A stretch of DNA of 64,000 bases from Erigeron canadensis. Lineage: Eukaryota > Streptophyta > Magnoliopsida > Asterales > Asteraceae. Position numbers and translations under genes: made by a program. Positions 16,776 through 61,040 of this stretch are shown in pieces. Location: positions 7,936,649-8,000,648 of the forward strand of contig NC_057763.1 in the NCBI RefSeq assembly GCF_010389155.1, in the 5' to 3' direction. Positions within the stretch are counted from its first letter, which is position 1. Each line of letters starts with the position of its first letter. Under the pieces are notes generated by a model, which had not been told where the DNA came from, made no database searches, and was given only the letters and a program-made list of their open reading frames with translations.

Positions 16776-16900
16776 AGCGGCGCTGGAGGGTGGGTAGCGG
16801 CGTTAGCTGTGCCCAGTAGCGGCACTGGGTGAGTGGGAGAGGCGCTGGATTGCACAGGTGCAGGTCCAGCGGCGCTGGTCTTCTAGGAACGGCGCTTGTG
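16776..16900. repeat. AGCGGCGCTGG hairpin-word array
   Basis: Five to six variants of AGCGGCGCTGG (agcggcgctgg, agcggcgtta, agcggcactgg, aggcgctgg, ccagcggcgctggt). CCAGCGGCGCTGG folds on itself with one unpaired central base. It is much more GC-rich than its surroundings. The same word recurs at 31769-31843. Confidence 0.75.
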
Positions 16901-17040
16901 ATCCCTGTACGTGTTCTGATGTCTGATTTCTTCAGCGATTTGATGCTTGAACTCCCCTACACTTAGCTTTTGGCTAAATGCATGGTTTCCTTAATTGCAA
17001 TTTGTCACATATTCCTAAAAATGAAAATAAAAATAAAAAT

Positions 17041-17770
17041 ACGGCTTGGGTTGCCTCCCAAAAAGCGCTAAGTTTAACGAGTTTTCAGCAGGACTCGGCC
17101 TAGGAACTAGGGTGAGGAGTGTGGATTAGGCCTAGGACCGGTACCCGTGGGGTTGTATCGAATAAAAATGTCGGACTTATCCTCCAAAAATGACTCGATA
17201 TTCACCCTTTCTCCTTGTCCTTGGCAAAGTTTATGCTCATAGTCAAAACCATAAGGATTATCCTCACTTATGTCCTTCTTACTAAACTTCAGTATGTTTA
17301 TCCCTGACTGTAGAAATAACTCTCCTAATTCTACATTAATGTCAACACATGCGGTTTTTAGAAAAGGTTGACCTAAAATCACATTACTCTTAGTTATCTT
17401 ATTCTCTTTAACCATGAAGAACTCGGTTGAGAATTTCAGTCCACCTATACTAATTACCACATCTTTCACAAATCCACAAATTCTAATCCTGACATCCTTG
17501 AAAATGTAGATCATCTTATCCTCCCATTCTACTTTTCCTAATTCATTACTGGCATATCTGGCATGATAATCTAAGGGATGTATGTTTACCTTAGCTCTAG
17601 CATCCATAAACGGTCCAAATCCTAGGTTTCGTCGAATCACTCCACGAACTTTAAAAATGGTAGGGTCCCCTAGGGCAGAAGTGGACAGATAAGGGTTAAA
17701 CTTGGTTAAAGCTTGTTCCTTGATATCATTCCAGCTTAAATTGTTTAAGAACTTCTTATTCTTAGCCAGT
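17041..17770 (-). pseudogene. Ty3/gypsy retropepsin-like fragment
   Basis: The minus-strand frame 17640-17107 (177 codons) contains VILGQPFLKTACVDINVELGEL, the typical second half of a plant gypsy retropepsin-like domain (consensus LGRPFL-TA-). The similarity begins further upstream, near 17770, in the same frame without a start. Downstream on the minus strand the GGGAGGCAACCC sequence near 17060 matches the block that follows integrase in the Athila-type element at 52329-52350. Here it comes right after the protease, so reverse transcriptase, RNase H and integrase seem deleted. Gag and LTRs are not seen. Probably an Athila/Tat-type remnant. Confidence 0.65.
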
Positions 17771-17893
17771 CTCGGTCTCCTCTAAAATACTTTCTAATTT
17801 CTCACCCCTAGTCTCCCTATGTAACTCACTAAACCCTTTCTCACATCGGACTTTCATGTTCATAGCTTTGTTATACCAACTATGTCCTGAGTG

Positions 17894-20800
17894 TGTAACA
17901 ACCCTCATTTTCCGACTAGGACAACTTACTTACATTCATCTAGGTATTTATCCCTAGAGGTTTAACAAGAGAATTAACCTCCTAGACATTTAGGGCATGG
18001 TGATATTTTCCATTTTAGTTCAATAGAATGCCAAAAAGAATTGAGTTGCCTTAGAAATGCCATAAACAAACAAACAAAAAAAAACTATAGTCATCTAAGA
18101 AAATCTCATACTATAATTAGTTCTAATTGAACTTCATGAAATGTCAACGAACCAAAAAAAAAAAAAAATTTCAAGGAGTTAAATCATAAAAATAACACAT
18201 GATTAGATAACAACCAAAAAAATTCTATTGAATATCCAACAATTCAAACACCAAGTTAATTAAAGTACATTTGAACATAAAATACAATGACCATCTTATA
18301 AATATATTTATAAAACTATGATGTACATAAAAGTGCTTGAACAATAATAAGTATATCTATATAAATAAAAAATATATACAAGTTTATAAACTAAGAACTA
18401 AATAACAAATTGAAACACAAAAGTTATGTATATACATATGGGTTTTGATCATTTGAAAACTAAAATTTTCGTGAAAACTAGAAAACTGCCAAAACACACT
18501 GTAATCTGAATCTAACACAATGTGTTTTTAATAACATATTAAAAACACATTGTGTTAAGTTCATATCACAGTGTGTTTAAACAATTTTCCGATTTACAAC
18601 GCTATCAAAAACACACCGTGATTTAAAACTTAACACAATGTATTTTAGGTTACACAATAAAAACACATTGTGTTTTATAAATATATATTGTGTTAAATTT
18701 AGATCACAGTGTGTTTTGGTCAGTTTTCTAGTTTTCACAAAAAAAATTTGTTTTCCAATGAATATTTCACATATACATATACACATACGCGGTTACATAT
18801 ACATACATATGTATGCAATTATGCCTTAAAAATACTAAATAACTAGTAATAAACCTTCATGGATAAACCTACACTAGATATGGATACACATACACTTAAT
18901 ATACAACAAAATTTGAAAATCCTCTTCCTTTTTCCCTTACAAAAACCGGCTTCCCCTTCCCGATAAGCCTTTACCCAATCAAAAATTAGTTGCATGAATT
19001 ATTCTTACACTTTCAAGGCATTTCATACCCAAAGTTACACTCTAAATCTTTCTTCACACAACTTAATCACTCTAACCCTTCCCAACACACACACAAAGAC
19101 ATTTCTCTCTCATTTTTCTCTCAAAAATCTGCACATTATCATCTTCCTCTCTTCATCATTTTTGGTTCAAAGAAAGCAACAAAAAGGCAAGAAAAATCAA
19201 TCTAAAGTTATAGTAATAATAAGGGTTTTTTAAAGGATTAAGCAAGAGTTGATTCAAGTAAGGCTTAAGGGTTATTTTAAGCTTGGATTAAAGGTTATTA
19301 GGAGCATAAAGGTCACAAAATTTTCTGCATATTTTCGTCTCCAAAACCGAGTTCATCAAGCGTATAAATCTTCACCTCTTTGTTAGATTAATCTTGTTTA
19401 TATTTATATTCAAAGATCTTTATCAAAAGTTTATGTTTTCTTCTTGTTTCTTTGAAAAACACACTTGATGAAGGCAAGTTGATAAAATCTTCTTCATCAT
19501 GCTCATGCATGTCGAAATCTAGAAGAAGATTCAAGGATTCAACCTTGGTAAGACCCGAAAGTGTTGATTTAGTGTAAAAGCTTGGAAAGTTGTGATATGG
19601 GTACTCATAGGTCCGATTTTTACAATTTATTTAGCTATGTTTTCTGTGATATTTCAGCAAGAATGATATTTTCAAAAGTTGGATTAAAGTTTATATGTTG
19701 ATCTTGTTTAAAAGTGTTAGATCTTAACATGCATGCTTAGAATTGCACTGGTTTGAGTTGTTTTTGATATGGATTGGAGATGAATCTTTTGAATAATGAT
19801 TTTGTACTCATTTGAATGTTAAAATATGCAATAATAATCTGGATTTTATAGTTACATTTCAAGAAGTATGGATTTTATAAGAACCAAGGCAAAACTATGC
19901 ACAAAAATCACTAACCGAAATCACAAGAACACAAATATAAATTCATCACTTTCATCAAATGATTTGTCCATAAGATATGAAATAAAATCTGGAGAAAACA
20001 ATAATAAAAGATTAAGAGTTGAATTAGGATGAATGAAATGTATTGGTTTTACCAAAATAAGTGTTGGGTGAAGTCATAAAGTAAAGGCATGCATTAGGTA
20101 AACAAAGTAAGTTGACAAAATCAATCTTCTGTCTTGAAACGGGTAAACTAGACATGTGACGGCTGTTTCAAGCAAAACTTTTGAAATAAACGTTGTAGAG
20201 AAATGCGTTATGTTTAACCTCCAACTAGAATTACTCAAAAATACTTTACCAAACGAAAGATACGATTTTTCTACTAAAACTGGTCAAGGCTGCATTTTTG
20301 TCAGAATATTTTATCAAATTTAATAATTTTTATCTCCTAATCCATAAGGTTCTAGAAGGTCAAACTTGGTGGAAAGTGATTTCAATGTGTCCATAACATA
20401 AAATAAATTTTTGGGATTTTTCTGAAAGTCATATCCCTAAGAACTTATATAAAATATTTCAAGTCGCCAGATTTGTAGCCTTTTTGACCACATTAGTTTA
20501 CGTAATTTTTATGCACAGTAAACCTTATCTAAAAATTCACCAAAAATTCACGAAAATACTATATACATATACGTCACTGTGTAAAAATCATCAAGGTCCA
20601 AATAATTCAGCTTGACTCCAAAACAGTAGCCAACATTTCATAAAAATGTGAAGTAAAAACAGAAAATTATGAAGTGAACTTATAATTAGTGTAATGGGCT
20701 AAGGAATGGACTAAAGACCACAATGGGCTAGGCCGGCCCAGATAATGAACCCATTGAGTAATAAATCAATAGGCCCACCTGGACCAATAACATAAATAGC

Positions 20801-22313: not shown

Positions 22314-22962
22314 TGTTGAGTCTTGGATTTGCTGATTAGACTTACTCGCTGACATGTATAGTCAGCAAGTCTTCAGCGAGTCTAGTGACTCTCTTCAGCG
22401 GGATGTATGCTGACCAAATGTTCGTCATGGCGGGAAGTATTCAAACCATATGAAGACAAGAGTCACATGGTGGTTCTTCCAACTGTAACATGCCAGACTT
22501 GGTAAAGGTATAGTTTGGGACCAAAACTTGGGTCTTCTCTCTCATACCCATTTTGGTAAAGAAGACAAAGGCTCTTGCTTGGAAGTACAAAGAGCCAATG
22601 GAATGTCACCAACCACCATCTATCACCATCAAAGGAAGGCTGTGTTGCCCTAATTCTTCCCCTATATAAAGCAACACAGCCGCATTGTATCAAGTGTGTT
22701 TGTCACCTTGAAAGTGTGTGTCACTTGTAATTGTTCAAGTTTTTAGTGTGTCTAGATTTAGTAATTACCTTTGTTCTTTTGTATTCTTGTAAGTCAAGTG
22801 TGTAAGATCAACCATGTATTCATCGTTTAATCAATGATACATATGATTATCCTTGCATTGATCTATTACAATTGAACTTGTTATTGTTTTTGTTATTTAT
22901 CTTCTTATTTGCTTTCTTGTCTAATTTAAATATAACATAAGTTGTGCATTCGTGGACCATCA
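22314..22962 (+). repeat. 5' LTR of copia C
   Basis: Starts TGTTGAGTCTTGG. The TATA box TATATAAA is at 22663-22670. The end is placed at ...ACCATCA, two bases before the primer site at 22965. Direct similarity to the 3' LTR stops earlier, at 22942. The first 130 bases hold the CGCTGA/TCAGCG hairpin words. Confidence 0.85.
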
Positions 22963-22964
22963 AG

Positions 22965-25138: not shown

Positions 25139-25168
25139 AAGGAGCTAAGCCCTTTAAAAGAAGCACTA

Positions 25169-31065: not shown

Positions 31066-31695
31066 TGTTGAGTCTTGGATTCGCTGATTAGACTTACTCG
31101 CTGACATGTATAGTCAGCAAGTCTTCAGCGAGTCTAGTGACTCTCTTCAGCAGGATGTATGCTAACCAAATGTTCTTCATGGCGGGAAGTATTCAAACCA
31201 TATGAAGACAAGATTCACATGGTGGTTCTTCCAACTGTAACATGCCTTACTTGGTAAAGGTACAGTTTGGGACCAAAACTTGGGTCTTCTCTCTCATACC
31301 CATTTTGGTAAAGAATACAAAGGCTCTTGCTTGGAAGTACAAGGAGCCAATGGAATGTCGACAACCACCATCTATCACCATCAAAGGAAGGCTGTGTTGC
31401 CCTAATTCTTCCCCTATATAAAGCAACACAGCCGCATTGTGTCAAGTGTGTTTGTCACCTTGAAAGTGTGTGTCACTTGTAATTGTTCAAGTTTTTAGTG
31501 TGTCTAGACTTAGAAATTACCTTTGGTCTTTTGTATTCTTGTAAGTCAAGTGTGTAAGATCAACCATGTATTCATCGTTTAGTCAATGATACATATGATT
31601 ATCCTTGCATTGATCTATTACAATTGAACTTGTTATTGTTCTTGTTATTTATCTTCTTATTTGCTTTCTTGTCTAATTTAAATATAACATAAGTT
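31066..31695 (+). repeat. 3' LTR of copia C, altered end
   Basis: Starts TGTTGAGTCTTGG after the polypurine tract, with the TATA box at 31415-31422. Very similar to the 5' LTR up to AACATAAGTT (31695). The last 20 bases of the 5' LTR are replaced here by tandem copies of a 'cttgttatttatcttgttatttgcttt' unit (31696-31762). Confidence 0.85.
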
Positions 31696-31768: not shown

Positions 31769-31843
31769 CCAGCGGCGTAGGTGGTGTACCAGCGGCGCTG
31801 GTGCTTCTTGCTAGCGGCGTTGGCTTGTAGCCAGCGGTGCTAG
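31769..31843. repeat. second AGCGGCGCTGG hairpin-word array
   Basis: Four spaced variants (ccagcggcgtagg, ccagcggcgctgg, ctagcggcgttgg, ccagcggtgctag). It carries the same word as the array at 16776-16900 but in otherwise different sequence, suggesting two copies of one element family on either side of copia C. Confidence 0.7.
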
Positions 31844-32148: not shown

Positions 32149-33339
32149 TGATAAACGCCTAAAATGCATAATCTTAATGAATAAAAATGACACTTGTTGT
32201 GCTTGTTAATAGAAAAATAGGGCGTTTTTATGTTTGTTGAGTGATTTCATGCTATAGATATCAAATGGAACTAATGTGAATCAAGAAACGAGTCAAAAGA
32301 GCCATGGATGAAATTCTGGAAATCTTAAGTTACAAAGGGCGTACCTTACGCCAGGTTTGGGCGTAGATTACGCCACACAAAAGTTGAAGGGGCGTAGGTT
32401 ACACCCAGGAGGGCCGTATCTTACGCCAGTTGCTAGACCTAAATTCTGAATTTTATGGTTTTAATTCAAGTTCAGTTTGTATCTTTCAAGGGACGACTTT
32501 TGAAAGTTACAACTCATATTTTCTCAAACCAAGCGCAGTTCCTAACATTCCCAAGACCTCAATTCCATCATCATATCACAATTCCATGGAGATCATAGCC
32601 TTAATTGAAGAATCATTGATGAAGATGATAGGCTAGGTTTTCTTTTGATCATTCTCATGTGAACAATTATGTAAGCCATTTATGTTCAATTTTTCTCATA
32701 CTCATGTTGGATTAGATGTTTAGTTCTTCATTAATCTTTTAAATCTAATGTTGTTTGGATTGTTTGAATGATTATTTGTTTATGACTTGAATGAAATTCA
32801 TCTATCATTTGGTTTTGTTTGGATTGTTTGAATGATTATTTGTTTATGACTTGAATGAAATTCATGTATCATTTGGTTTTAACTTGTTAAGTAATCATTG
32901 ATTATTGAATGAATCTCTCATGAACTTGTAGTTTTACTTCAATGAATTAGAAGTCTAGTTGTGTCAATTACCCAGCTTTCATTATCGTGAATCATCACAA
33001 CCGATTAATCTAATTCTTGAGTTCATTCAATCCAGACATTATAACGAATCATGTCTATGTGATTTCCAACGAGTATAAGTTAGGTTACATATTTGAAAGC
33101 ATAATTGGAAGCATGAGAATGGTCTACTTTTGTTAATTGAATTATTTTGTTAATTCATAATCAACTTTAGTTTTTAATCAAACAATCAATCAATCGGTTT
33201 TACTTTTATGCCTAGTTTAATTAACTTGTCAACTTGTTTAACACTTTCCCATAATTCCCTGTGGAAATGATACTCGAGTTACCCTTGCTAATTGGTGGTA
33301 TTTAGTTTATATTTTTGATCGGTCTAACGACATCAATGA
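32149..33339 (+). mobile_element. Athila/Tat-type solo LTR
   Basis: Starts TGATAAACGCCTAAAATGC and ends around 'ccctgtggaaatgatactcg...ggtctaacgacatca', the 'CCCTGTGGAAACGATACTC' region being characteristic of Athila/Tat-type plant LTR ends. GAGTG occurs on both sides (32144-32148 and 33340-33344), a candidate five-base duplication. With it the right end would be ...CATCAATGA instead of the expected CA, so the exact end is uncertain by four bases. There is a direct duplication of about 60 bases at 32750-32880 ('ttgtttggattgtttgaatgattatttg'). No internal genes, so a solo LTR. Confidence 0.7.
32337..32430. repeat. GGCGTA/TACGCC hairpin-word array in the solo LTR
   Basis: GGGCGTACCTTACGCC, GGGCGTAGATTACGCC, GGGCGTAGGTTACACCC and GGCCGTATCTTACGCC in succession. 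Each pairs GGCGTA with TACGCC (or TTACGCC). Confidence 0.8.
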
Positions 33340-38350: not shown

Positions 38351-40106
38351 TGTAACGTTTCAACCCAAATTAAAGCGTAATTATTGAAAACCAATACTTT
38401 AGACTTTATACTTAGAAAAATACGGCCATTTTTCGCGAAAAATCAAAATGTTGCAATTCAAGAAAAGACACTTGTAGTGTTCTTAAATTGATGTAATTAG
38501 ACTACTATATAAGTTTCAGGACCCAAAAAGGTCAAACGAAGGCTCGAAAAAAAAACAAGGTTCGAGGTCAGTGGAGCACGGCCTTTGCACAGGGCAAGAG
38601 CCGTGCTCTGCGACACAGAGGCCGTGCTCACTGTTGTACACCAAAAACACTCTTTTTGACGATTTTCAGCATTTCGACTCAAAATCAAACTTTTCCTTAT
38701 CATTCCCAGATACAAATAAATCATAAACACATCAAATGTACCAAAACTAAGTTTACCAAAGTGACAAGTTACCGAAATGACTTGTATCAAGAGCCATTAA
38801 GTACAATAGGGATATTCTACCCCAAGTTACCCATGTGCCAACCTTTGAGATGGCAAGAACCTTCAACTTGATCTTCACTCTAACGCTTCTTTACCCTTGC
38901 TACTACCAACTCCTATAAAGATTTAAACAACTAAAACATAAGTTACGCTTGGTGAATGTATACACATATAATCATAATCATGTCATTTCAACTTTGTGCA
39001 TCAAGCACCATATAAGCCTAGCAAGCTAGCCTTTTCATACAAATCAAACAACATACATCATTTTCAACATGGCCATGGACATTTTGGCTAGTAGGAACTC
39101 TTGCATACAATATGAATAGTAGGAACTTAACCACCTACTAGCTCTCAAAATAAATCAACAAATGGGTCATAGGAATTTACCTACCTATGACCTCTAATAA
39201 CAAGAACATGATTACATGCATATACACTCACTTCATTTGGCTAGCTGACACAATAAGGGTACATGATCAACAACTCACTTTTCCACACCTATACATGAAT
39301 CAACACACAACATTTATGAGTTCTACAAAACTCACTCTCTGGCAAGTATCTACTTGCATTCATAAATCCCATCACTATGGTGATTGGCTACTCAATAATT
39401 TCAACAAATTCCAAATTCTCCTCATAAAACTTTGTTTCATAAATTACTAGTCAAACACCATAAAGTATGAGATTCTTACTATGAGGGATTTTCATTACCA
39501 ACAAATTCTTTAAATCAAACTAACTATTTCTCAATCAAATTTTATTAGGGTTTTACTTGAAATTCCCAAATAACAAAAACCCCCAAATTCTAAGATTAAG
39601 AACCCTAAATTTTAATAACAAATAGAATTAGGGTTATGGAAATCATTACCTCAAGAATGAGAGACAAAGAATTAGGGTTATCAAATCACAATTCTTCCCC
39701 CTTTTTCTTCCTAGAATTTTCGGTCATCACCACCTCCAAGAAAGCCCCAAATTTCAATTTCTAACACAATAGGAGATGATTGTTGATATAGTTTTAGGAT
39801 TGAAATTATTTAATTTATGATTTAATGATTCAATTGCATGAACTTTGGAAGCATTTGTGAGATGAGTTAGTTAGACGTGAAGTGAAATTTGAAGTGGAAA
39901 AACATGAGTCACAAAGACTATGTGGCTGGCTTTCTTCTTAGATGGCCATGTCCCATACTAATTTTAGTGGGTTTAATACCCGCTAGCCACTAAAGTTCCG
40001 ACTAAATTAACCCCTTAACTCAAAACAAAGTACTAGTAAATTAATTTAGTGTCAAAACTATAAAAACGGTAAATTTTCTATTACCTTAAAATATTGGGGT
40101 GTGACA
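38351..40106 (-). repeat. 3' LTR of chromovirus F
   Basis: TGTAACG...GTGTGACA on the plus strand. Contains the GAGCACGG word array (38571-38636) and two further hairpins: CTAGTAGG/CCTACTAG (39088-39141) and GGTCATAGG/CCTATGACC (39165-39213). Short frames in it are not genes. Confidence 0.95.
38571..38636. repeat. GAGCACGGCC hairpin words, 3' LTR copy
   Basis: GAGCACGGCC, then GAGCCGTGCTC, then GAGGCCGTGCTC. The first can pair with either of the others. The 5' LTR copy (45206-45283) has one more unit. Confidence 0.85.
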
Positions 40107-44985: not shown

Positions 44986-46781
44986 TGTAACGTCTCAACC
45001 CAAATGAAAGCGTAATTATTGAAAACCAAAACTTTAGACTTTATACTTAGAAAAATACGGCCATTTTTCGTGAAAAATCAAAATATTGCAATTCAAGAGA
45101 AAACACTTCTAGTGTTCTTAAAATGATGTAAATAGACTACTATATAAGTTTCGGGACCCAAAAAGGTCAAACGAAGACTCGAAAAAAAAATAAGGTTCAA
45201 GGTCAGTGGAGCACGACCTTTGCACAGGGCATGACCCGTGCTCTGCGACACAGAGGCCGTGCTCTATGACACAGAGGTCGTGCTCACTGTTGTACACCAA
45301 AAACACTGTTTTTGCCGTTTTTCAGCTTTTCGACTCACAATCAAACTTTTCCTTATCATTCCCAGATACAAATAAATCATAAACAAATCAAATGTACCAA
45401 AACCAAGTTTACCAAAGTGACAAGTTACCGAAAGGACTTGTATCAAGAGCCATTAAGTACAATAGGGATATTCTACCCAAGTTACCCATGTGCCAACCTT
45501 TGAGATGGCAGGAACCTTCAACTTGATCTTCACTCTAACGCTTCTTTACCCTTGCTACTGCCAACTCCTATAAAAGATTTAAACAACTAAAACGTAAGCT
45601 ACGTTTAGTGAATGCATACACATATAATCATAATCATGTCATTTCAACTTTATGCATCGAGCACCATATAAGCCTAGCAAGCTAGCCTTTTCATACAAAT
45701 CAAACAAAATACATTCATTTTCAACATGGCCATGGACAATTTGGCTAGTAGGAATTTACCCACCTACTAGCTCTTGCATACAATATGACTAGTAGGAACT
45801 TAACCACCTACTAGCTCTCAAAATAAATCAACAAATGGGTCATAGGAATTTACCCACCTATGACCTCTAATAACAAGGACATGATTATATGCATATACAC
45901 TCACTTCAAACTTGGCTAGTTGACACAATAAGACTACAAGATCAACAACTCACTCTTCCACACCTATACATGAATCAACACATAACATCTATGAGTTCTA
46001 CAAAACTCATTCTCTTGCAAGTATCTACTTGCATTCATAAATCCCATCACTATGGTGTTTGGCTACTCAATAATTCCAACAAATTACAAATTCTCCTCAT
46101 AAAACTTTGTTTCATAAATTACTAGTCAAACACCATAAAGTATGAGATTCTTACTATGAGGGATTTTCATTACCAACAAACTCTTTAAATCAAACTAACT
46201 ATTTCTCAATCAAATTTTATTAGGGTTTTACTTGAAATTCTCAAATAACAAAAACCCCCAAATTCTAAGATTAAGAACCCTAAATTTTAATAACAAATAG
46301 AATTAGGGTTATTGAAATCATTACCTCAAGAATGAGAGACAAAGAATTAGGGTTATCAAATCACAATTCTTCCCCCTTTTTCTTCCTAGAATTTTCGGTC
46401 ACCACCACCTCCAAGAAAGCCCTAAATTTCAATTTCTAACACAATAGGAGATGATTGTTGATATAGTTTTAGGATTGAAATTCTTTAATTTATGATTTGA
46501 TGATTCAATTGCATGAACTTTGGAAAAATTTAAGAGATGAGTTAGTTAGAAGTGAAGTGGAATTTGAAGTGGAAAAACATGAGTCACAAACACTATGTGG
46601 CTGGCTTTCTTCTTAGATAGCCACGTCCCATACTAATTTTAGTGGGTTTAATACCCGCTAGCCACTAAAGTTCCAACTAAATTAACCCCTTAACTCAAAA
46701 CAAAATATTAGGAAATTAATTTAGTGTCAAAACTATAAAAAAGGCAAATTTTCTATTACCTTAAAATATTGGGGTGTGACA
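44986..46781 (-). repeat. 5' LTR of chromovirus F
   Basis: Collinear with the 3' LTR. Differences include one additional GAGCACGG-type unit (45206-45283) and an additional copy of the CTAGTAGG...CCTACTAG hairpin segment (45745-45815), which together account for most of the 40-base length difference. Confidence 0.95.
45206..45283. repeat. GAGCACG hairpin words, 5' LTR copy with extra unit
   Basis: Units GAGCACGACC, GACCCGTGCTC, GAGGCCGTGCTC and GAGGTCGTGCTC: four against three in the 3' LTR. The unit 'gacacagagg(c/t)cgtgctct' is repeated twice here and once there. Confidence 0.85.
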
Positions 46782-50562: not shown

Positions 50563-50940
50563 TTGCCGTTTGAGTTGATGTGGGATGCAAGTGACTATGT
50601 TGTTGGAGCCGTGCTTGGGCAAAGGGTTGATAAACATTTCAAGCCTATTTACTATGCTAGTAAAACCTTGAACCCCGCCCAGCAGAATTACACTACTACA
50701 GAGAAGGAGTTGCTTGCAGTAGTATTTGCATTTGATAAGTTTAGGTCATATTTGGTATTAAATAAGACTGTTGTTTTTATCGACCATTCTGCTTTGAAGT
50801 ATTTGTTTTCTAAGCAAGATGCAAAGCCTAGACTTATCCGTTGAATTTTGTTGCTACAAGAGTTTGATATAGAAATCAAGGACAAAAGGGTGTAGAAAAC
50901 TTAGTAGCTGACCATTTGAGCCGATTGGGAGACCCAAACC
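50563..50940 (+). pseudogene. pol: RNase H of Athila G, truncated and with stops
   Basis: ELMWDASDYVVGAVLGQRVD, HFKPIYYASKTLNPAQQNYTTTEKELLAVVFAF and DHSALKYLFSKQDAKPRLIR identify the gypsy RNase H domain; catalytic positions D (WDAS), E (EKELL) and D (IDHSAL) are present. A TGA replaces the Trp expected after LIR, and another stop (tag) lies near 50893 in IKDKRV*K. The upstream polymerase is missing. Confidence 0.92.
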
Positions 50941-51425
50941 GAGAGGAGTTTCAAGATGGGGAGATTAAGGATAACTTCCCCGATGAATATATAAATGTTA
51001 TTTTTAACTCTGATGAAGGTCCTTGGTTTGCTGATATTGCTAATTATTTGGTTTCAGGTGAAATACCGGATGATTTCTCGGGTCAACAAAAGAAGAAACT
51101 CATATCGGATGCTAAGCACTACTTTTGGGATAATCCATATTTGTTTCGCTCTTGTGCAGATGGTGTGGTGAGAAGATGTGTAGCTGGGGCTAATACTTGG
51201 GAGATTCTTGATGCTTGTCACTACGGGCCAACTGGAGGTCAATATGGTCCTTTAGTTACAGGTAAAAAGGTTTTTGATGCAGGTTTCTACTGGCCTACAA
51301 TCTTCAAGGAGGCTCAAACGTTGGGGCATGTAACATTTGTAAAAGACAAGAGAGCATCATTAGATGGGATGAAATGCCACAGCAAGGAATTCAGGTATGC
51401 GAAGTATTTGATATTTGGGGCATAG
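50916..51425 (+). pseudogene. pol: integrase N-terminal region of Athila G
   Basis: 169 codons: a linker (RLGDPNREEFQDGEIKDNFPDE), then the integrase zinc region with YLFRSCADGVVRRCV and ILDACHYGPTGGQYGP, and [13 protein letters not shown]. In Athila/Tat integrases the HHCC motif reads H..H...C..C; here part of the segment after AQTL (the CxxC part) is scrambled by a frameshift at about 51330. Confidence 0.9.
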
Positions 51426-51799
51426 ACTTCATGGGACCATTCCCACCATCTAATAAGTTTCAGTATATTTTGGCTGCTGTTGACTACGTGTCTAAGTGGA
51501 CTGAAGCCAAGGCTTTGCCTATAAACGACGCGAGAGTAGTCATAGATTTTTTAAAACAATTGTTTAGTCGTTTTGGTTGCCCTAGAGCCTTGATTAGTGA
51601 TCGTGGTACACATTTTGCAAATCATCAATTGACTAAGGTTCTTAAAAGATATGGTGTTTATCATTACTTTTCTACCTCTTATCACCCACAGACCAGTGGT
51701 CAAGAGGAGAACACCAACCGGGCATTAAAAAGAATTTTGGAAAAAACACTCGGGGATAACCCCAAGGTTTGGTCAAAGAAGCTAGATGACGGCCTTTAA
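51374..51799 (+). CDS. pol: integrase catalytic core of Athila G
   Basis: 141 codons with D in [11 protein letters not shown] in [12 protein letters not shown] and E within [42 protein letters not shown] is typical of Athila/Tat. The frame closes at 51799 and the C-terminal part overlaps in the next frame (51786). Confidence 0.95.
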
Positions 51800-52289
51800 G
51801 ACACCGATTGGCACCACGCCATACCGATTGCTCTATGGTAAGACTTGTCATTTACCGGTTGAACTAGAGCATAAGGCTTATTGGGCGTTGAGAAACTTGA
51901 ACCTAGATATGATGGAGGCCGGTGAACTTAGGATGTTGCAACTTCATAAGCTCGATGAGCTTAGGTTGGGTGCATATGAGAACTCTAGGATTTATAAAGA
52001 GAAAACTAAAGTTTACCATGACAAAAGGATTCGTAGGAAAGAATTTAAGGTTGGGGAAAAAGTTTTGTTGTTCTTGTCAAAGTTTAAAATTAAACAGCCT
52101 AAGTTAACTTCTAGGTGGATAGGACCTTTTGTGATAAAGCATGTTTATCCGTCCGGCTATGTTGAGCTGTTTAAAAGAAATGGAGACGGTTCGTTCATTG
52201 TTAATGGCCATAGGTTGAAGTTGTATTTGGAAGAAGATCAAGAGGAGGGGATGGTTGAAGAAATCCCCATTTTTGAATCCGAAACTTGA
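51786..52289 (+). CDS. pol: integrase C-terminal domain of Athila G
   Basis: 167 codons: [25 protein letters not shown], then [32 protein letters not shown] and a GPF module [20 protein letters not shown] ending in [10 protein letters not shown]. No chromodomain, which places it outside chromoviruses. It is followed within 45 bases by the 'gcgcttctcgggaggcaaccc' block. Confidence 0.93.
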
Positions 52290-52905
52290 AAGATGGTCAA
52301 GTCTAGCTAATGACTCGTAAATAAATTAAGCGCTTCTCGGGAGGCAACCCGTGTTTAACTTTTATTTTCTTATCATTAGTTAGATATGACTTTGTTTTGT
52401 TAAGTGCGGGTTCAGATTTGATATGAAGCGAATTGAGGTAAGTTCATATAAAAATGAAAAATTTTTTTTTTCTAGAAAAGTCCCCCACTGCGCCGCAGTG
52501 GGGGTGGATGTGGTGACTGCGCTGCATTAAAAAATATCGGCATGGAATTGACAAAAACCCCATTGCGCCACAGTGGGGTGTGACCATGAGACTGCGCCGC
52601 AATCCAAACTCTCGGCATCCAGATGCATATTGACCCACTGCGCCGTAGTGGGTGAGACCAAAGCCCACTGCGCCGCAGTGGGTGGTTTGACCTGTCAATT
52701 GGGGGAGCGAGTATGAGCCATTCAAAATAGGAAAGTGAGTATCTTATCCTCATAATAAAAAAAAACCTCTTTGTCTCCTTTACTTAAAAAAACCGAATGG
52801 CTCATTCAAATACACCCTCAAGGCTCCGATTTTGTCCTTTAATCCGCCATCAATCTTGCACTTTTCTTCTTCTTCTTCTTAGATTAACATCTATCATTCA
52901 TCATC
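52290..52905 (+). other. pol-to-ORF spacer of Athila G with hairpin words
   Basis: Non-coding. It contains the first hairpin array (52482-52690) and a CT-rich leader (52755-52900) before the ATG at 52906. Antisense frames across the array exist only because the repeat is self-complementary. Confidence 0.7.
52482..52690. repeat. CACTGCGCCGCAGTG hairpin array, upstream block
   Basis: Six units in 200 bases: two perfect CCCACTGCGCCGCAGTGGG hairpins (52484-52504, 52663-52683), a near-perfect one with GTAGTG (52632-52650) and three decayed. Each has nine-base arms around one central base. Confidence 0.93.
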
Positions 52906-53556
52906 ATGGGAAGAGGAGTAAGTATTCTTGACTTTTTTCTTTTTAATTTCTTCAATTTTGATTTTTTGATTTTTAGGTTTTAATTACCGAATTGGTTGAT
53001 GGGTTTTGTGGGTAATGTGTTAATTATGCTAATGAGGTGGTTAATTTCACGATTCAAACAATTGTTCATCCGGATTTGAGTTGAAATCAAACCTAGGGTT
53101 TTGAAAAATTAGGGCTTTTTGATAAACAAATGTGGGGGGGAATTAAAGTGTGATTAAGTAGTAATTGTTGCTTAATATACCTGTTGGAATGATTAATTAC
53201 CCCTGTGAGTTTGATTTAACTCATGAAGTAATCTTATGAACTTGCCCAGAAATTTATGCCACTGCGCCGCAATGGTGGTGGGTGTAACCCACTACGCCTC
53301 AGTCGGCTTGCTCCTGACCTGCACATGATTTGAACCTCACTGCGCCGCAGTGAGGGGTTGTTGAGTTCCACTGCGCCGTAGTGGGAAATCTCATCCGAAT
53401 TTGTCCTATGCCTCACTGCGCCGCAGTGAGGTGGTTCTTAAGCCCACTACGCCGCAGTGGGATGACTTTCCTGCTCAATTTTATTTGTTTATCTTGCATG
53501 ATTAAGTTTGTATTCCTTATTTATAGTGTTTGTTTGTTTATGTTTTGTGATTGTAG
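52906..53556 (+). other. predicted first exon (12 bases) and intron of the Athila ORF
   Basis: ATGGGAAGAGGA (52906-52917) is followed by GTAAGTATTCTTGAC, a consensus donor. TTGTGATTGTAG ends at 53556, a consensus acceptor, and the next exon continues in frame (GATGTTGCCGGTG). The 639-base intron is T-rich and holds the second hairpin array. Splicing is inferred from consensus only. Confidence 0.5.
53258..53462. repeat. CACTGCGCCGCAGTG hairpin array, intron block
   Basis: Six units. Two read CCTCACTGCGCCGCAGTGAGG (53336-53356, 53411-53431), i.e. both arms changed together relative to CCCACTG/CAGTGGG, so pairing is kept. Confidence 0.93.
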
Positions 53557-54927
53557 GATGTTGCCGGTGTTGATAAAAGAAAGAACCCCGAAGTGAGTCA
53601 ATCAAGTGGGACTGCAGAGGTTCCCGCTAAAGCTGCGAGACAACAACCGGAACCACCAACTCTTAAGTTTGGTCGGGACAACCCAATGAAAACAATGCTT
53701 GGCTCGAGTTCAAGGGGTCAAGCAACCACATAAGAACACTTATCTTAATAAGCTGTTCGCCATCCATAAACACGTGGTTTGCCCACCCAGGTATCTCCAC
53801 CCTACTGCTGCTCAACATTTTGGTATTCAGGGTGATATAAATAGATGGTTTCGGGTTGAGGCTCAAGTGGGAGACCGGGTTGTTACTAGTAGTTTGTGGC
53901 AAAATGTGTTTAGTAACCGGGAACCGGTGTATAGGGAGTTGTGTTTAGAGTTCTTTTCGACTCTGAAATTGTCGAAGGAACTGCATAAGGTGAAGGACAT
54001 TTTTGAAGAGAGATGTGTTGCATTCTACTGTGGGGGAACTCAAAGAAAAATTTCTATCGCACAGTTCGGGTATTACTGTGGAATGTATTCAAGGGAGAAG
54101 TTAGCTAATCCGGAGTTTAGGGCACTGTTGAGGAAAGGGTTATATGTTAAGCAGGATATTGGTGCTGGTGAGTCCATAGCACAGTATTGGACTCGTATTT
54201 CTGGGGGAGAAGCCTGGCCGTCTGGTGGTACGGTTAGTGTTTCTAAGATTAAGAATGTACGGTTGAGGTTGTTGCACCGCCTGATTGTTACGTTTTTGGT
54301 ACAAAGGTCCACTCACTGGGACAAAGCGTACCAAACAGATTTATGGCTTATTAAACTGTTTTTTGAGCGGGCACCGAGCAGGTTTGCACTAGCCCCTATG
54401 GTTGTTTTGGACAGGATGTGAAATCATAGTGATTCTATGTTGGTGTTGGGACATTTTATTACCCGAATCTATAGGAGGATGGGTATTTTTTAGTCTGAGG
54501 ACTATCAAACTGATCTTTCCCCACCCATTCATCAGGAGAGTTTAGAGGAGAAAGAATTGGTTAAGGCTAAGATTTTGAGGAAGGCGCAGGGGGGTCAACC
54601 TGCGAGATTGTTGGATGATGAGGGAGTGATTGCTGCACCGCCTCCAATTGTGGAGGCAACTGAGGATGTAGAGATGGGGGATGCTCTACAGGAGCCGCCG
54701 AGGAGGAGAGGTCAGGCAGGTATTGATTTGACCCCGTTGGGAGCCCAGCTTCAGCAGATATTTGAGGGACAGCAGGCTAGCTGCCAGGCTTTTGATGCTT
54801 ACCAGCAGCTGATGGACCAGGAGATCACTTGGTTAGGGTCCCAACAGGGGTACACTAACTACACTCATGATTACTATAGGCCGATGTGGCGGGCCCAGTT
54901 CGCGGGGAGGAGTTTGTCAGACCCGAC
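53557..54927 (+). pseudogene. Athila-type downstream ORF, N-terminal part
   Basis: After the predicted splice the frame runs to about 53700, then shifts. 53699-54421 gives 240 codons: NTYLNKLFAIHKHVV, a conserved-looking core VYRELCLEFFSTLKL, AFYCGGTQRKISIAQFGYYCGMYSREK and LLHRLIVTFLVQR, resembling the ATHILA ORF-1 protein family. A TGA at 54421 and a TAG at 54493 interrupt it; 54557-54927 continues with ARLLDDEGVIAAPPPIVE and LGAQLQQIFEGQQ (coiled). The element at 54928 splits it and the rest is at 58572-58961. Function in retrotransposition is unknown; no transmembrane segment is seen. Confidence 0.78.
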
Positions 54928-55192: not shown

Positions 55193-55194
55193 TT

Positions 55195-55206
55195 TGGCAT
55201 CAGAGC
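55195..55206 (+). promoter_or_regulatory. primer binding site of element H
   Basis: TGGCATCAGAGC, one base different from the tRNA-Met-complementary TGGTATCAGAGC. Confidence 0.88.
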
Positions 55207-55725
55207 ATAACAACTATATGTTGGCAGATCCATATCTCGATTTTGTGCATTTCTCATCAAATTTTCGAGTTTATATTTCGAAAACCGTTTTTGATCAAAC
55301 TGTGGGATTTTTCTACAGTTGATTTTACCTCAAAATTTGTACACCAGTCGATTTGTCTTCTCGATACGATTCCATTGATATAAAATTCATCAAAATCCGT
55401 TGAGAAACGAAGGAGATATCATTGATTTACTTTTTGAAAATTCAAAAACATTTGCTCGAAATTTGGGTTTTGAATTTGTTGTGTTTTGTGTAGAATTTTG
55501 TTCGTAGATGTGTAGTTGAGGTGAAAACGAGCAGTTTGCAAGTGATTTCACGTTCTAACTCCTAGTAATTCAAAAGTTATCGAAGTTTTTAAAGTCGTTA
55601 ATGGAGTTTTTTTGTATAAAACTGCTTGGCTGGTGAAAAAGAAGATCTCAGGAAGATTTTGATAGGATGATCTTGTTTTAGCTCCCAGAACAATCTTGAG
55701 ATAGTCGTATTACATTTTGCACTTA

Positions 55726-56216
55726 GGACGATCTTAGTAAGATCGTTTCACTTCTTGTCCCTAAGACGATCTTGACAAAATTGTCTCACCCAGGACGATC
55801 TTGTTTACTTTATTTGGATATGTGTAATTGAGTTTGTGGCTGTGTGGTTTAGTGTTTTGGTTGGGAACCATACACTCTGGCTAACTAATCCAAACGGATT
55901 GGTTTTGGTCAAAAATATTTTTCCTTCCAAGTCTAAACGAAACTCTGCCCAAAATTTTCCAAAATTTCTATACTTAGAAATTTTTCACACAAAAATTTCC
56001 AAGACGATCTTCCTCAAGATCGTATCATTTTTCTTCCAATACGATCTCCTCAAGATCGTCTCACTCTCAAACATTTAACTTAGCCAAATTTTCAACCATT
56101 TTCTAGGACGATCTCATCAAGATCGTCTCACCCTCTGAGCTTATATTTCAAAACGATCTCACCAAGATCGTTTCATTTTCAAATATTTCTTAGGACGATC
56201 TTCACAAGATCGTTCC
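55726..56216. repeat. GACGATCTT/AAGATCGTC hairpin array in leader of element H
   Basis: Seven hairpins: units such as GGACGATCTTAGTAAGATCGTT, AGACGATCTTCCTCAAGATCGT and GGACGATCTCATCAAGATCGTC, with arms of 7-9 bases, loops of 2-6, and mostly followed by TTCA(C/T) or CTCAC. Two more decayed single arms lie at 55650-55712. Confidence 0.93.
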
Positions 56217-56581
56217 AATTCTAAAAATCCTAAAATAATAATAAAAAAAAGTCTTTTGGCGGGAAAAATAATTTTTGTCCAGGGTCTTAAAAAGGGATAA
56301 TTCATGAAGATTTAAAATTTGATAGCATTAAAAAAATTTTAGGCCAATTTTCATCCGTTATCGACGCAGTTTTGGCGAAAAGTTTTAGAAATGATCAAAT
56401 TTTTCCTATGATCATGATATCCAAAGTTTACATGAAATTTCAAGTTTCTTGAGAACATATTTCGGCGGCAAAAATTTGAAGGGAAACCTGAAGTACAAAA
56501 TTTCCAAATTTCAATTTTAATTCTTTCACTTCAATTTCAATCACAATTACCTTTCATTTCATTCCACCTTTGCTCAACAAA

Positions 56582-57646
56582 ATGTCAAGTCCAAGTATCT
56601 CAAATTCGGTCAAAAATGATTTCATCTTCAATTTGTGGTTAACTTCCTCACCCAAGAAACCTACTTCATCCGAAGTGAAACTTCATAAAGATGGATTGTG
56701 TTCATGTTGTTCGTCGAAGCCTTATCCAAATCCTTGTCAAGTGATGAAGTTATTGATACATACGACCGCAACGGAAAATGTCAAGTTTCAAGAGGAAGTA
56801 GTTAGATTACAAGCCGAGAATGTATAACTGAAAGAACAAATGACCTACTTTCAAGCTGGGAATGTGAGGCTTAGAAATGAGATGAAAGAACTTCAAGTTG
56901 AAATTGGAAAGAAGAATGATGAGTTGATGTCACAAGTTTCATCATTGGAAGCTCGTCTCTTGAAGGAAACAACTCTTGTTTCTCAAATAAAGTCTGAAGT
57001 GTCATCAATTTCCTTGTCTGATTTGAGTTCTTCGATTGAAAAACAACTTGAGAAGATTCAAAGTCGAATTGCATCTTTCAAGTCGAAGTCTCTTGACACA
57101 AAAGTTGAAGCTATTCTGAAACGATCGAGTAGTTCTCCTGTTTCCAAGATTGATGATGTTCCAAAAACCCCCAACCGTAAAGTGTCTTAATTTACCAACT
57201 ATGCCTTGGAAAAGGATAGAAGGTACTCTCAGAAGACAAATATTGATGGAACAAAGACTCTCATTTCATTCTTATCATTTAAAGAAAATACCAAGTTCAT
57301 CTCTCAAGCAAAATCTCAGTTGAAGAAGCTGAAATGTCAACAAGTATACAAACCAAAGACAACTGAGTCAAAGTCATTCAATTATTCTCTTTCGAAGCTG
57401 TTTGACCTTGCACCTTCTCCAGTGCAAAAAGTGAATGAATTTGCTTCTCCACTGCTTCCACGGAAAATTCACTTTTCCTCAACCCAAGTTTTCATCCTCC
57501 GTGGAGTGCAGATTCTATTAGTCGAATCGATGACACTTTCCTTTGGAATGTCAAGACGAAAACCATTGGGCCTACACTCAAATGGGTCCCAAAGGTTGTT
57601 CGTAAGTGATTCGATGAATATGGCTTATACACATGTCAGTGTATAA
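56582..57646 (+). pseudogene. gag: Gag-like protein of element H, frameshifted
   Basis: ATG at 56582. The first 81 codons include CSCCSSKPYPNPCQVMKLL, then a coiled coil (ENVKFQEEVVRLQAENV) interrupted by a TAA at 56825. The coil goes on in the same frame (56840-57190, RLRNEMKELQVEIGKKNDEL), then shifts. The part to 57646 ends near a 'tctacactcaaatgggtcccaaaggttgt' stretch that in another frame reads as the LKWVPK Gag end of some copia elements. No zinc knuckle is seen. Its coiled-coil style resembles the Gag tail of copia C. Confidence 0.65.
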
Positions 57647-58306
57647 CCCAGGCTAAAGATGTTGTTTATTGGACTACTACTTCATAATGGTTGATTCCCC
57701 AGTTTCAACTTCAAAGAGACATGATGAACATGTGGCCACACATTCATCATGAGGGGAAGAAAGAAAACAATGAAGTCGAACAAGTGTGTGTGCTTTCTTG
57801 AAATTTGATGGGGAGAAAGAAGAATTCATCAGTTGAGGGGAAGAAAGATAAATTGTTGACTAAAGTGATCCCCAAATTATTCTTTGAAGATAGTTATCGC
57901 CAACGTGCTAGGTACGCCGCGGGTACACCCTATAGATAAGCGTTGGTGGTACGCAAATATGATTGTTTGATCGAGGGGAAGTTTGCGATGAAAATGATGT
58001 TTGTCCAAATGCTTCAAGAGAAAGATTCATTAATTAAGGGGAAGTGTAACAAAGTTAAGATTGTCAAGAAGAGGCTTTCATGTTCAAACCTAAAGAGCCA
58101 AGATCAAGTTTCCACAATGCTTATACTCTGAGAAGATTCAATACTTAAAGATACATCTTTAAGATAAGTGTGAAGATTAAAGACGTAAAGCCAAGTTTGA
58201 TGGAAGATCTTGAAGACAATGAGAAAGCTTCAAAGACATTCATCAACAAATTCGTATTTAAAGATGATGTCATGCATGTATTACATTTCAACACTAAGAG
58301 GAAGAA
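57647..58306 (+). other. non-coding 3' part of element H
   Basis: Contains four purine-rich GAGGGGAAG-type motifs (57750, 57836, 57974 and 58036), and a final AAGAGGAAGAA directly before the 3' LTR that is the likely polypurine tract. No convincing frame. Confidence 0.65.
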
Positions 58307-58571
58307 TGTTAGAACTAAAAATGGTGTTAAAATGTAAATGTTTTAGAGGTGGAAGGGGCATTAGTGAAACTTAGATTTATGATATAAATAGCCCCCTTTC
58401 ACACATTAATTGTAAGCCTTTTCCCATTTTACACATTAATCATTCCATTTCACTCTAATTATTCTCTCTCCATCTCCATCTTCAACCTCCATACACACAA
58501 AAACACCTTTTCACACACTAACCTTAATTTCACCATTAGAACACAAATCGAGCTTAAATTTCTATTTTACA
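58307..58571 (+). repeat. 3' LTR of element H
   Basis: 265 bp, TGTTAGAAC...TTTTACA, with an intact TATAAATA at 58384-58391. Confidence 0.93.
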
Positions 58572-58961
58572 CCGATTCCTGAATTTAATCCACCACCTAT
58601 CCTTGTTCCACCATATAGACAGGACGACGATTCTTTCTTCTCTACGCCCGCCCAGATGGACATGTTTTCACAGCCCCATGACTTAGGAGAATCTCCTAGA
58701 GGGCCGGTCCAGTTTGGTCGATACACGGGTGGTGATGCTGGTGTTTCATCTTCTATGCCTAGTTTTACTGCAGGTACTGGTTCTGGATTTGCCGATATTG
58801 CTAGCGGCTCAGGAGGATTTGCTGCTGGTGGGTCTGGATATGCAAGAGATCAAGCAGGAGGTGGTTATGGTGGCTCTGGCTCAGCACATGAGGAGGACCG
58901 TAACTGGGTGACCGATCTTTTTGCTCCACCCAATTTTTCGTGGATACCCTGGACAGCATGA
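58572..58961 (+). pseudogene. Athila-type downstream ORF, C-terminal part
   Basis: Immediately after element H the interrupted protein resumes (PIPEFNPPPILVPPYRQDDDSF). It runs through a Gly/Ser-rich tail (FADIASGSGGFAAGGSGY) to a stop at 58959-58961. It confirms that element H inserted into this ORF. Confidence 0.75.
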
Positions 58962-60113
58962 GTGATGATAGTGATGATGATGACTCCCATCCGGTTCCGT
59001 GGGATGGAGTCGTATGTTGATTAATTGTTATTCATATCGGTATCTGGATGACTGTACCTTATACATTGTTTCTTATTTTCTGTCTTTAATGCTGTTGGTA
59101 TCCACCCTACGGGGTGATGAGACATTTTCATTTGTATTTTCATTTTCTTTTCTTCTCTTTAGGTTTTATTTGTTGCATGAAACAGTTATTACTTTGATAA
59201 TCTTGGAAATTTGCTTTAATTTTGATGCAAGTGAAACAGGTTCTTACATTTGATGGCTATAGCGCAACACAAGTGTGGGGGGAACCCCTTGGATTCTCTT
59301 CTCATCTATTTTCTATGGCATGAATGTGTTGATTGTGTGATGGTGTGCGTATGCTGGCAGTAAGTTCAACGCTTTATTGTTGCTTGTATGTTTGATGCAC
59401 ACACAACTCTCGCACTTTCTGTTTTGGTACAAGGTGTTTCTCCCGCCAACCAGAGTGTTCTTCCTATTTTGGAAGCGCAATTTGTAACACGGGGTCGACT
59501 AACTTGTTTCGAAATGGAATGTGTCCTTATTCCGGTATGTGCTCTTATTTTTCTATGTCGCTTACCCCTATGTACTCTTGTTTGACCAAAGATGGACATT
59601 GGGGGCATTGTCCACCTTAAGTGTGGGGGGTGGGGGTGGCAAATAGGTTTAAGCTGCCGGGTTTATCGCTTTTGTTGATTTGCCATTGAGATTTCTACCG
59701 ATTTTGTTGATGTGTCCCTCTCATAGGCCTTTGGATTCTATCTAAGGGTAGGATTCTCCATTTCAAGCTCTTCACTGTGATGTGCATGTTTAAAACTGGT
59801 GCTTTCAATTTGGCGGGATAATAGAAGTTGATATGATTTTTAAACTTGAGTTGAACTTGTCCTTGTGGTAAATTTCTTGTCACTTAATTTTTAACTTAAT
59901 GAGCAATTTTACTACAAATTTTTCCTTGACAAAAAATTTTAATTGGCGAAGTGTGTTCTGAACGGTTATTTGGCTAGTCCTTCGGGATTGATAACATTAC
60001 TTGCATACTCATATATATCCAAAACACCCAATTGTCAGATTTCATCATTTCATATATAGTTGTTGTAAGTCCCAACTATTACTAGATGGGTGCTGAAGAC
60101 ACCTCTATGTCGA
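58962..60113 (+). other. non-coding 3' tail of Athila G and flank
   Basis: Contains two purine-rich blocks (aagtgtggggggaacc at 59268 and aagtgtggggggtgggggtgg at 59618), the second a candidate polypurine tract. The expected 3' LTR start after it is not recognisable. Short frames on both strands (59366-59608) show no domain. Confidence 0.5.
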
Positions 60114-61040
60114 TGGTGAGTGAACTATGCAACACAATCAATTAATCTGGATATGACCAATTTAGATTGATTGTGTATCAGGTTAACTGGAGTAAATGTA
60201 TTAAGGTGACAGAATACGTAAACTAATACAATGCAATAATATAAATGTCAAGTATATAAATTGGTGAGACAATATGTAATTTTCAAGTGTATTTTATTTA
60301 TTGGTTGTTTAAATAAAATACAAGGTTGTTGCGGAACCAAGATAATACATGAATGTAAATATCCTAACAACCCATGAATTACAAGTGATCTAAACTTGGA
60401 AATTCTCCTAAACAATCGAAACACTTAAAGTTGTGAAATGTTCCTTTTTGCGATTGAGAGAATGTTTCACAAGTTCACCAATATTGCAGAATATATGTAT
60501 TTGCAAAGTTGTTGAAAATGCTTGTGCAAAGACCTCTATTTATAGTCGAAGATTGAGCATGGGGATCTCAACTTCGACGTACAAATATGGTTGACAGCAC
60601 ACAAAAGTATTGTTTAAATAATCCTTTGTGTGTGCTAAATAAAGTAAGACAAAAGGTTACTTTATTCAACCACTCTACATCTTTGCACCTTTATCGAGGA
60701 ACAATATCATTGTCCGGTTAAAAGGATGTAGAGTAAAAAGGTCCTCCTCGTAATCAGTGTAAAACTTTGTAAGAGCATTTACACTGGAGGATTCTCCAGT
60801 TGATTGATCTGGTAGATTGTCAACTGGGCTTCGCTGCCATTGCCAATCTCTGTCTTCCATTTGTTGTCTTTGACTTCAACTGGAAGGTCTTCAGATTTTA
60901 GTCTTCAGATCTCAACTGGAGGAAGTCATCAGTTGCTAAACCTGTACAATGCAACTGGACTTTTAATATTTCGGACAATTCTGCATGCTCTCTAGATGTC
61001 GCTGGAGAGCTCCAGTTTACAGTTTAAACTGGACCTAACA
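60114..61040 (-). repeat. 3' LTR of copia element D
   Basis: Starts on the minus strand TGTTAGGTCCAG at 61040, right after the purine tract TAGGGGAATT (61050-61041). TATA (CTATAAATAGAGG) lies near 60545. It is collinear with solo LTR E (931 bp), which places the left end near 60114, where TGGTGAGTG matches TGTGAGTCC of E. The left end is uncertain by a few bases. Confidence 0.82.
60768..61034. repeat. CAACTGG/CCAGTT hairpin-word array in LTR D
   Basis: Within 260 bases: CTCCAGTTG, CAACTGGG, CAACTGGAAGG, CAACTGGAGG, CAACTGGAC, CTCCAGTTTACAG and AAACTGGACC. The homologous segment of LTR E has CTTCAG/CTGAA. Confidence 0.8.

Follow-up and report, generated by a model that had tools for sequence, protein, structure and literature searches.

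Introduction

Clusters of short palindromes in the long terminal repeats (LTRs) of plant retrotransposons are known from Sireviruses, in which, according to the accessible parts of Bousios et al. (2010; PMC2829016), "RM" boxes are short palindromes with a short centre that occur in multiple copies, each element having a single word (13 elements in their Table 3); the copies cluster 5' of the TATA box in the LTR and again 5' of ENV in ENV-bearing elements. The same parts term the boxes Sirevirus-specific and absent from classic Ty1/copia elements, the comparison lying within Ty1/copia, and give a CGG-CCG core in all elements but one. Here we describe arrays of this general design in 64,000 nucleotides of the Erigeron canadensis genome (Asteraceae; GCF_010389155.1, contig NC_057763.1, positions 7,936,649 to 8,000,648, forward strand; G000:C3:7936649-8000648, hereafter the window), foremost two arrays of an Athila-like Ty3/gypsy element whose word and spacing recur in chromovirus-type LTRs. 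We use Athila, chromovirus, SIRE and ENV-like as working names; the computed evidence consists of Pfam domains only.

Palindromes in maize Sirevirus LTRs are reported to be small-RNA hot spots (Bousios et al. 2016, via the available portions of PMC10760457 and PMC5311732), and resemble the present arrays in clustering within the regulatory part of the LTR. Martin et al. (2023; PMC10760457, in the portion available) report a structure peak in maize Copia LTRs, no obvious one in Ty3/RLG elements, and one palindrome common to Copia and Helitron elements. In einkorn wheat, LTRs of RLG_Quinta (Gypsy) and RLC_Gisela (Copia) share a motif (PMC11302176, accessible part) that is likewise a segment near the LTR promoter, proposed to derive from a different lineage through gene conversion, for instance, but is a single 162-bp nucleosome-linked segment and is not termed a palindrome array in that part. 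A search of literature on Athila, chromovirus or gypsy elements with palindromes, whose reach excluded most subscription papers, found no report of such arrays.

Against RM boxes as the accessible parts of PMC2829016 define them, the likeness is considerable. At least eight repeats per element are specified there, as are clusters that form CpG islands, and the window's Athila-like arrays hold 12 units (some imperfect), with six to seven in LTR pieces of two relatives. LTR clusters lie ahead of a TATA box, the exceptions being the window array at 32337, the genomic locus L100 and the array of ACGATCTT; extra clusters 5' of ENV have their counterpart in arrays 1 and 2, before and within a gene that is ENV-like by position only. 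The differences are that the cores here are GCGCCGC, GGCGTA, ACGATCTT and others rather than CGG-CCG, that the carriers of the main word are Athila-like and chromovirus Ty3/gypsy elements rather than Sireviruses, and that units follow a 30/45-bp spacing, a further array occupies a predicted ENV intron and one word serves two lineages. An earlier note, made from the DNA sequence alone, knew of no named feature class for such arrays; RM boxes are one. The design is known for Sirevirus LTRs, and what is new is its presence in two Ty3/gypsy lineages with shared word and spacing.

Arrays and hairpin unit of the Athila-like element

The Athila-like element carries two arrays of one word 3' of its integrase, as follows:

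50868..52289, + strand: integrase end of pol, overlapping frames, which we presume to be Athila; rve (PF00665) in 51278-51799; relatives in many plants
52435..52444, + strand: GAGGTAAGTT, a splice-donor-like motif just upstream of array 1, exact in 28 of 30 copies
52483..52683, + strand: array 1, six palindromic units of 21 bp, not all perfect; stem of 9 bp, loop GCC in most; centres about 30/45 bp apart
52906..53556, + strand: predicted exon 1 (ATGGGAAGAGGA|GTAAGT) and intron to ...GATTGTAG|GATG of the ENV-like gene, located by the window copy's own letters
53257..53462, + strand: array 2, six units, some imperfect, same word as array 1; inside the predicted ENV-like intron
53690..54421, + strand: ENV-like open reading frame, 3' of the arrays

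Array 1 sits between the integrase and the ENV-like frame, and array 2 lies about 750 bp beyond it. The label ENV-like for 53690..54421 is our assumption from the Athila layout, by position only; a Pfam scan of the frame gave no match.

Conservation was assessed in 30 of 40 listed places matching window positions 52440-52720 (L009-L038), comprising the window itself (L009) and 29 others 74-78% identical to it, most of them decayed. All 30 places, which were retrieved by similarity to array 1, hold at least two hairpins of at least 7 bp, and alignment with MAFFT placed the six units of array 1 in constant order. Across nine pairs per unit, paired cells amounted to 97, 95, 92 and 97% in units 1, 3, 5 and 6, and to 76 and 69% in units 2 and 4; sliding the 3' side by one to four columns gave 11-77%. 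Mean pairwise identity was 0.85 in hairpin columns, 0.91 in the 13-bp core, 0.64 in spacers and 0.67 in the 3' flank.

Among 362 hairpins of arrays 1 and 2, a set that includes off-register matches (spacings 16 and 20-26 bp), complementarity ends sharply at pair 10 from the centre, defining a 21-bp unit with a 9-bp stem and a 3-nt loop, GCC in 285 hairpins. At the outer pairs, 7-10, the letters vary (C-G, G-C, T-A, A-T) and complementarity is kept: Watson-Crick pairs numbered 282, 257, 254 and 186, as against 192, 166, 165 and 102 after partner shuffling (sd 6.5-7.7; the copies are related, and we attach no probability). Past pair 10 partner shuffling of these hairpins revealed no Watson-Crick excess; there is likewise none at pairs 2-4, because those letters hardly vary. 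The claim of the earlier note that folding persists while letters vary thus holds for the outer stem of these units. Within the core the T-A pair at position 4 is retained in 358 hairpins, and substitutions at pairs 2, 3 and 5 are in many cases transitions (C-to-T or G-to-A) in a CG or CTG context, consistent with methylated DNA; pair 6, which is not a CG or CTG site, departs in 46 hairpins too, so that the core changes fit the decay of methylated cytosines in part.

Such compensation raises the alternative that the folded strand is what is selected, the hairpins acting in RNA (packaging, dimerisation, stability or ENV-like intron splicing) or being cut by Dicer, with the letters free. Besides the compensated outer stems and their sharp limit at pair 10, it draws on folding z-scores between -4.4 and -6.4 for arrays 1 and 2, on the location of array 2 in a predicted intron and of a conserved GTAAGT before array 1, and on varied yet complementary flanks in the ACGATCTT family as well. 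We nevertheless hold it improbable. G-T pairs are no commoner than A-C pairs, at 44 versus 45 in array 1 and 38 versus 41 in array 2 (319 of the 362 hairpins, 43 poor ones being dropped; pairs 2-8), although this test is weak because most sampled copies are decayed; with the same reservation, the RNA packaging or dimerisation role suggested earlier draws no support from these counts. The 13-bp core is conserved letter by letter (0.91), and Athila-like and chromovirus arrays have their loops in different directions with respect to transcription (below). Since most arrays precede the TATA box, moreover, they would enter RNA only via the 3' LTR. A lopsided wobble count over pairs 2-10 (G-T versus A-C 68/95 and 133/68) had been a candidate signal and was discarded, the counts being even once the poor hairpins were dropped and pairs 2-8 only were taken.

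The predicted splice structure of the ENV-like gene recurs among the copies. The donor ATGGGAAAGAAT|GTAAGT or a near variant, with an acceptor like TTGTAG|GATG and a frame open across the join, was found in 19 of 30 copies, with predicted introns of 565-659 nt; the exon-1 pattern tolerates up to four mismatches, and the window copy is among the 11 that it misses. Of the 19 predicted spliced frames, four run without a stop over the available 212-223 codons and 15 stop after 13-214 residues; in the window copy the first stop falls after 62 residues. The string TTTAA(A)GTAAAAA follows array 1 by 31-33 nt in 18 of 30 copies, a pattern picked after the copies were read. Between array 1 and the ENV-like gene, at 52701-52711, stands the purine-tract-like GGGGGAGCGAG, with similar stretches in many aligned copies; it is perhaps the extra purine tract mentioned for Athila4 and Calypso in the accessible parts of PMC2829016.

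One word and spacing in two Ty3/gypsy lineages

Over the 426 Mb and 356 contigs of the genome, the 15-mer main word CACTGCGCCGCAGTG has 2013 forward and 2144 reverse occurrences (4,157 in all), its letters-reversed control 1 + 0. Two further words are similarly abundant: CCAGCGCCGCT at 1245 + 1217 occurrences (reversed-letter control 1 + 2) and ACGATCTTNNNAAGATCGT at 848 places (control 0). A text search with two 11-mers from inside words found no printed use of the main word, the matching papers concerning other subjects by title. The first 100 listed main words form 39 clusters on contig C1, with 59 neighbour distances below 300 bp, 58 of them on the same strand; 18 fall at 29-31 bp, 14 at 45-46 and 13 at 74-76 (45 in total), and by this clustering the array approximates a degenerate 75-bp unit with two palindromes.

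Pieces of two different elements, L089 and L090, are 84% identical over 1.3 kb starting at TGATGTGACT, which in L089 is preceded, by eye, by a purine tract; each has six to seven units and then a TATA box, TATATAAA, 52-53 nt past the array, and on these sequence features we read them as Athila-like LTRs. Their rhythm is looser, at 45, 45, 29, 41 and 31 bp and at 30, 45, 31, 74, 42 and 31 bp.

The main word is found also in chromovirus-type LTRs, at nine loci (L091-L096, L098-L100) with mostly similar flanks by eye. The sole such element tied to a pol frame, C1:3863341-3870238, carries the array in both LTR pieces (L091 and L096, 83% identical in their main block), with a reverse transcriptase-integrase frame between them on the other strand and RVT_1, RNase H and rve domains in Ty3/gypsy order. 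Its pol frame shares 81 and 82% protein identity with two parts of the chromovirus in the window, whose LTRs bear another word:

38571..38629, - strand: GAGCACGG box cluster in the chromovirus 3' LTR, 59 nt before TATATA
45206..45285, - strand: matching cluster (CCGTGCTC copies) in the chromovirus 5' LTR, 59 nt before TATATA

The window's GAGCACGG boxes form one long stem plus direct copies. Not only do the words differ: no nucleotide similarity at E 0.001 links L091 or L096 to the 5' LTR of the window chromovirus. Conversely, the Athila-like integrase is only 33% identical to the C1 chromovirus frame, yet word and spacing are common to both, distances of 29-31 and 44-48 bp predominating in either lineage. 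The loop reads GCC in sense in Athila-like arrays and in antisense in the chromovirus of L091, L096 and L097. CTCG stands in the long spacers of 27 of 44 array-1, 20 of 33 array-2 and six of 15 chromovirus-type distinct sequences, and in none of four from Athila-like LTRs. In L094 (C1:447100-447900) all six loops are GGC instead of GCC, the spacers seemingly running in the usual direction by eye, as if the centres had been flipped.

The proposal that each family has a private word therefore fails on two counts, one word and spacing being common to Athila-like and chromovirus families, and two SIRE-like LTRs with a TATA box at similar distance carrying different words (below). Word and family are uncoupled, because related chromoviruses differ, SIRE-like LTRs differ and one word is common to two distant lineages. 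No word is private or fixed; what recurs is the place ahead of the promoter.

Position ahead of the promoter and its interpretation

For each array the nearest TATAWA downstream in sense was located, a match expected by chance at 0.18 per 120 nt on one strand; the sense of L094 was taken from L091. Among 18 arrays, nine have a TATA box within 60 nt, seven at 163-252 nt and two none. Distances were 52 and 53 nt in the Athila-like LTRs, 59 and 59 in the window chromovirus, 48 in L101, and 4, 5, 4 and 6 in L091, L093, L096 and L098; they were 237 and 237 in copia element A, 223 and 233 in the SIRE-like LTRs, and 163, 233 and 252 in L092, L099 and L094, the last three little better than chance.

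We lean, a little beyond even, towards the reading that the arrays are promoter-proximal, dyad-symmetric cis-regulatory boxes in the unique 3' (U3) region of the LTR, placed, for Athila-like elements, upstream of the ENV-like gene and within it as well, and read by a host factor in double-stranded DNA. A regulatory module of this kind is favoured because word and family are uncoupled while the place ahead of the promoter recurs; DNA rather than a transcript fold is the likelier target because the loop direction is reversed in the chromovirus and the wobble counts are even. The great number of word copies, the preferred spacing and the closer likeness of units than of spacers count in its favour too. 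The boxes would bind a host protein, probably a DNA-binding dimer that reads them in double-stranded DNA and switches the promoter, and would raise transcription. The palindromes may double as small-RNA and methylation hot spots, by analogy with those reported for maize Sireviruses.

Several observations weigh against regulatory boxes. The outer stem (pairs 7-10) is variable yet complementary, which a simple sequence-reading dimer does not need; hairpin template switching in the course of reverse transcription could be what perfects it. The sampled copies were retrieved by array similarity, so that retention of the array is partly built in. No TATA box was found for the window array at 32337 (within 400 nt after the array) nor for L100; distances above 100 nt carry little weight, because TATAWA arises in 18% of 120-nt stretches by chance; and the ACGATCTT array, with no known TATA box following it, lies about 530 nt past a primer site.

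A rival account dispenses with function: template switching at hairpins would perfect and multiply palindromes, which then spread with the elements. It would explain why stems are perfected pairwise where letters are otherwise free, why the arrays resemble a degenerate 75-bp tandem unit with two palindromes, and the uniform GGC loops of L094 among spacers of usual direction (by eye). It is set against spacers far more diverged than units (0.64 versus 0.85), a core retained letter by letter, the 29-31 and 44-48 bp spacing that prevails in two lineages and the recurrence of the place before TATA across separate families, and we consider it unlikely.

Returning to regulatory boxes, we put forward tentatively, at somewhat less than an even chance, that the 75-bp two-palindrome promoter module is transferable: Athila-like elements and chromoviruses would have exchanged it within one plant, other words would have been displaced at the same LTR position, unrelated elements would have converged on one host regulator, and the ENV-like gene would have acquired copies as promoter and intron boxes. 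Such modules would move between lineages by recombination or template switching. If so, regulatory parts, like hosts, are common property of mobile elements, and an element's word would indicate which host regulator it exploits. With regular spacing, compensated stems and an ENV-like gene bearing its own arrays, the long-standing question of LTR palindrome function, be it in DNA binding, in RNA folding or as small-RNA bait, becomes directly testable in one plant.

Arrays measured against shuffled and control DNA

The window holds 200 perfect hairpins (stem at least 6, loop 3-12), as against 95.7 +- 9.4 (maximum 117) in 30 local dinucleotide shuffles of 500-base pieces, and four same-word arrays of at least three hairpins, as against a shuffle mean of 0.03. 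Two of these four, at 35302-35650 and 14716-14950, lie outside the earlier note, the latter being a tandem repeat. Eleven fixed-coordinate 3-kb stretches outside the window gave 2.0 hairpins per kb versus 3.1 in the window; one contained a triple array, again of the ACGATCTT word.

Place by place (500 shuffles each, run with 5-mers and with 6-mers), the arrays at 32337, 52482, 53258 and 55726 exceeded all shuffles with 6-mers; those at 13791 and 60768 exceeded all with 5-mers and were matched by 4/500 with 6-mers. The CGCTGA places are weak: with 5-mers 22326 was reached by 15/500 and 31078 by 19/500 shuffles, with 6-mers by 370/500 and 389/500. At 16776, 31769, 38571 and 45206 the same-word inverted-array statistic was not significant. 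Folding energies (60 shuffles, both strands) gave z of -4.1 to -9.7 for 13791, 38571, 45206, 52482, 53258, 55726 and 60768, of -5.1/-3.6 for 22326, -2.7 on both strands for 32337 and -3.1/-1.6 for 31769; 16776 lay near its shuffles (-0.7/-0.9). An Rfam search returned no match.

The arrays are genuine but unequal among the eight named words: five stand above shuffled DNA as same-word inverted arrays and two, AGCGGCG and GAGCACGG, do not, with CGCTGA weak. Of what the earlier note had asserted, arrays for all eight words can be upheld for the five, CGCTGA staying weak and AGCGGCG and GAGCACGG not being inverted-word arrays; and the location outside conserved coding domains was borne out. In the comparison of stem energies that it proposed, most arrays lay far below shuffled DNA, and 16776 did not. 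Exact word copies lie 0-80 bases from the positions it gave, except that 45206 has no exact forward GAGCACGG, only the complement, from 45236.

That G+C-rich patches produce such words anyway, by chance or composition, suits 16776 and 31769 as inverted repeats and in part 22326. For the main words this explanation is already refuted, and overall we give it next to no credence: reversed-letter controls number 0 to 3 against 848 to 4,157 for real words, and both whole-window and per-place shuffles are exceeded.

Copia-type elements and other features

The remaining arrays of the window are these:

22314..22943, + strand: 5' LTR of Ty1/copia element A, opening with a weak CGCTGA/TCAGCG array that TATATAAA follows after about 237 nt
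31066..31695, + strand: 3' LTR of element A, 97% identical to the 5' LTR
32338..32430, + strand: GGCGTA/TACGCC array, exceeding every shuffle (6-mers)
55727..56213, + strand: ACGATCTT-NNN-AAGATCGT array in a copia-like leader, the element nested in the Athila-like element
60768..61034, - strand: CAACTGG/CCAGTT array, SIRE-like LTR; TATAAATA 223 nt downstream in sense
13791..14000, - strand: CTTCAG/CTGAAG array, second SIRE-like LTR; TATAAATA 233 nt downstream
16776..16880, no strand assigned: boxes AGCGGCGCT/AGCGCCGCT, for the most part direct repeats, partially dyad-symmetric
31769..31837, no strand assigned: AGCGGCG boxes, second group, outside the element A LTR

The array at 32338 has a relative in L101, where it precedes TATATA by about 48 nt in an apparent LTR. 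The nested copia-like element (54925-58571) is inserted in the ENV-like region of the Athila-like element and bounded by LTRs of 268 bp, 96% identical (54925-55192 and 58304-58571); its primer-binding-site-like TGGCATCAGAGC at 55195 was the only convincing site in a motif-based primer-site search. At least one ACGATCTT hairpin was present in 29 of 30 fetched copies (window included; retrieved by array similarity); the copy without one, L068, matched over only 189 bases. The two LTRs at 13791 and 60768, which we take to be SIRE-like by layout, share 79% identity over 131 bp around the TATA box and bear different words. At 16776 and in five fetched copies (L072-L075, L088) the AGCGCCGCT boxes repeat mostly in direct orientation and have imperfect flanks, so that here the letters, not the fold, persist.

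Long frames follow pol in two copia elements (27380-30938 and 61314-63351) and are ENV-like by position; four scanned pieces of them had no Pfam match. At 18513-18557 an AT-rich perfect 21-bp stem with a 3-nt loop, with related copies at 18608-18761, is possibly a small inverted-repeat element. Tandem repeats of the GGTCAGCTTG type at 14380-15185 stand opposite an inverted copy at about 15048-15321. The ATCCGAA/TTCGGAT-type hairpin array at 35302-35650, strong against 500 shuffles and linked to no LTR element, lies about 400 bp upstream of a CONSTANS-like frame (36055-36783). Across 94% of its length this frame matches an Erigeron canadensis protein with 100% identity; the hit ranked next has 49%.

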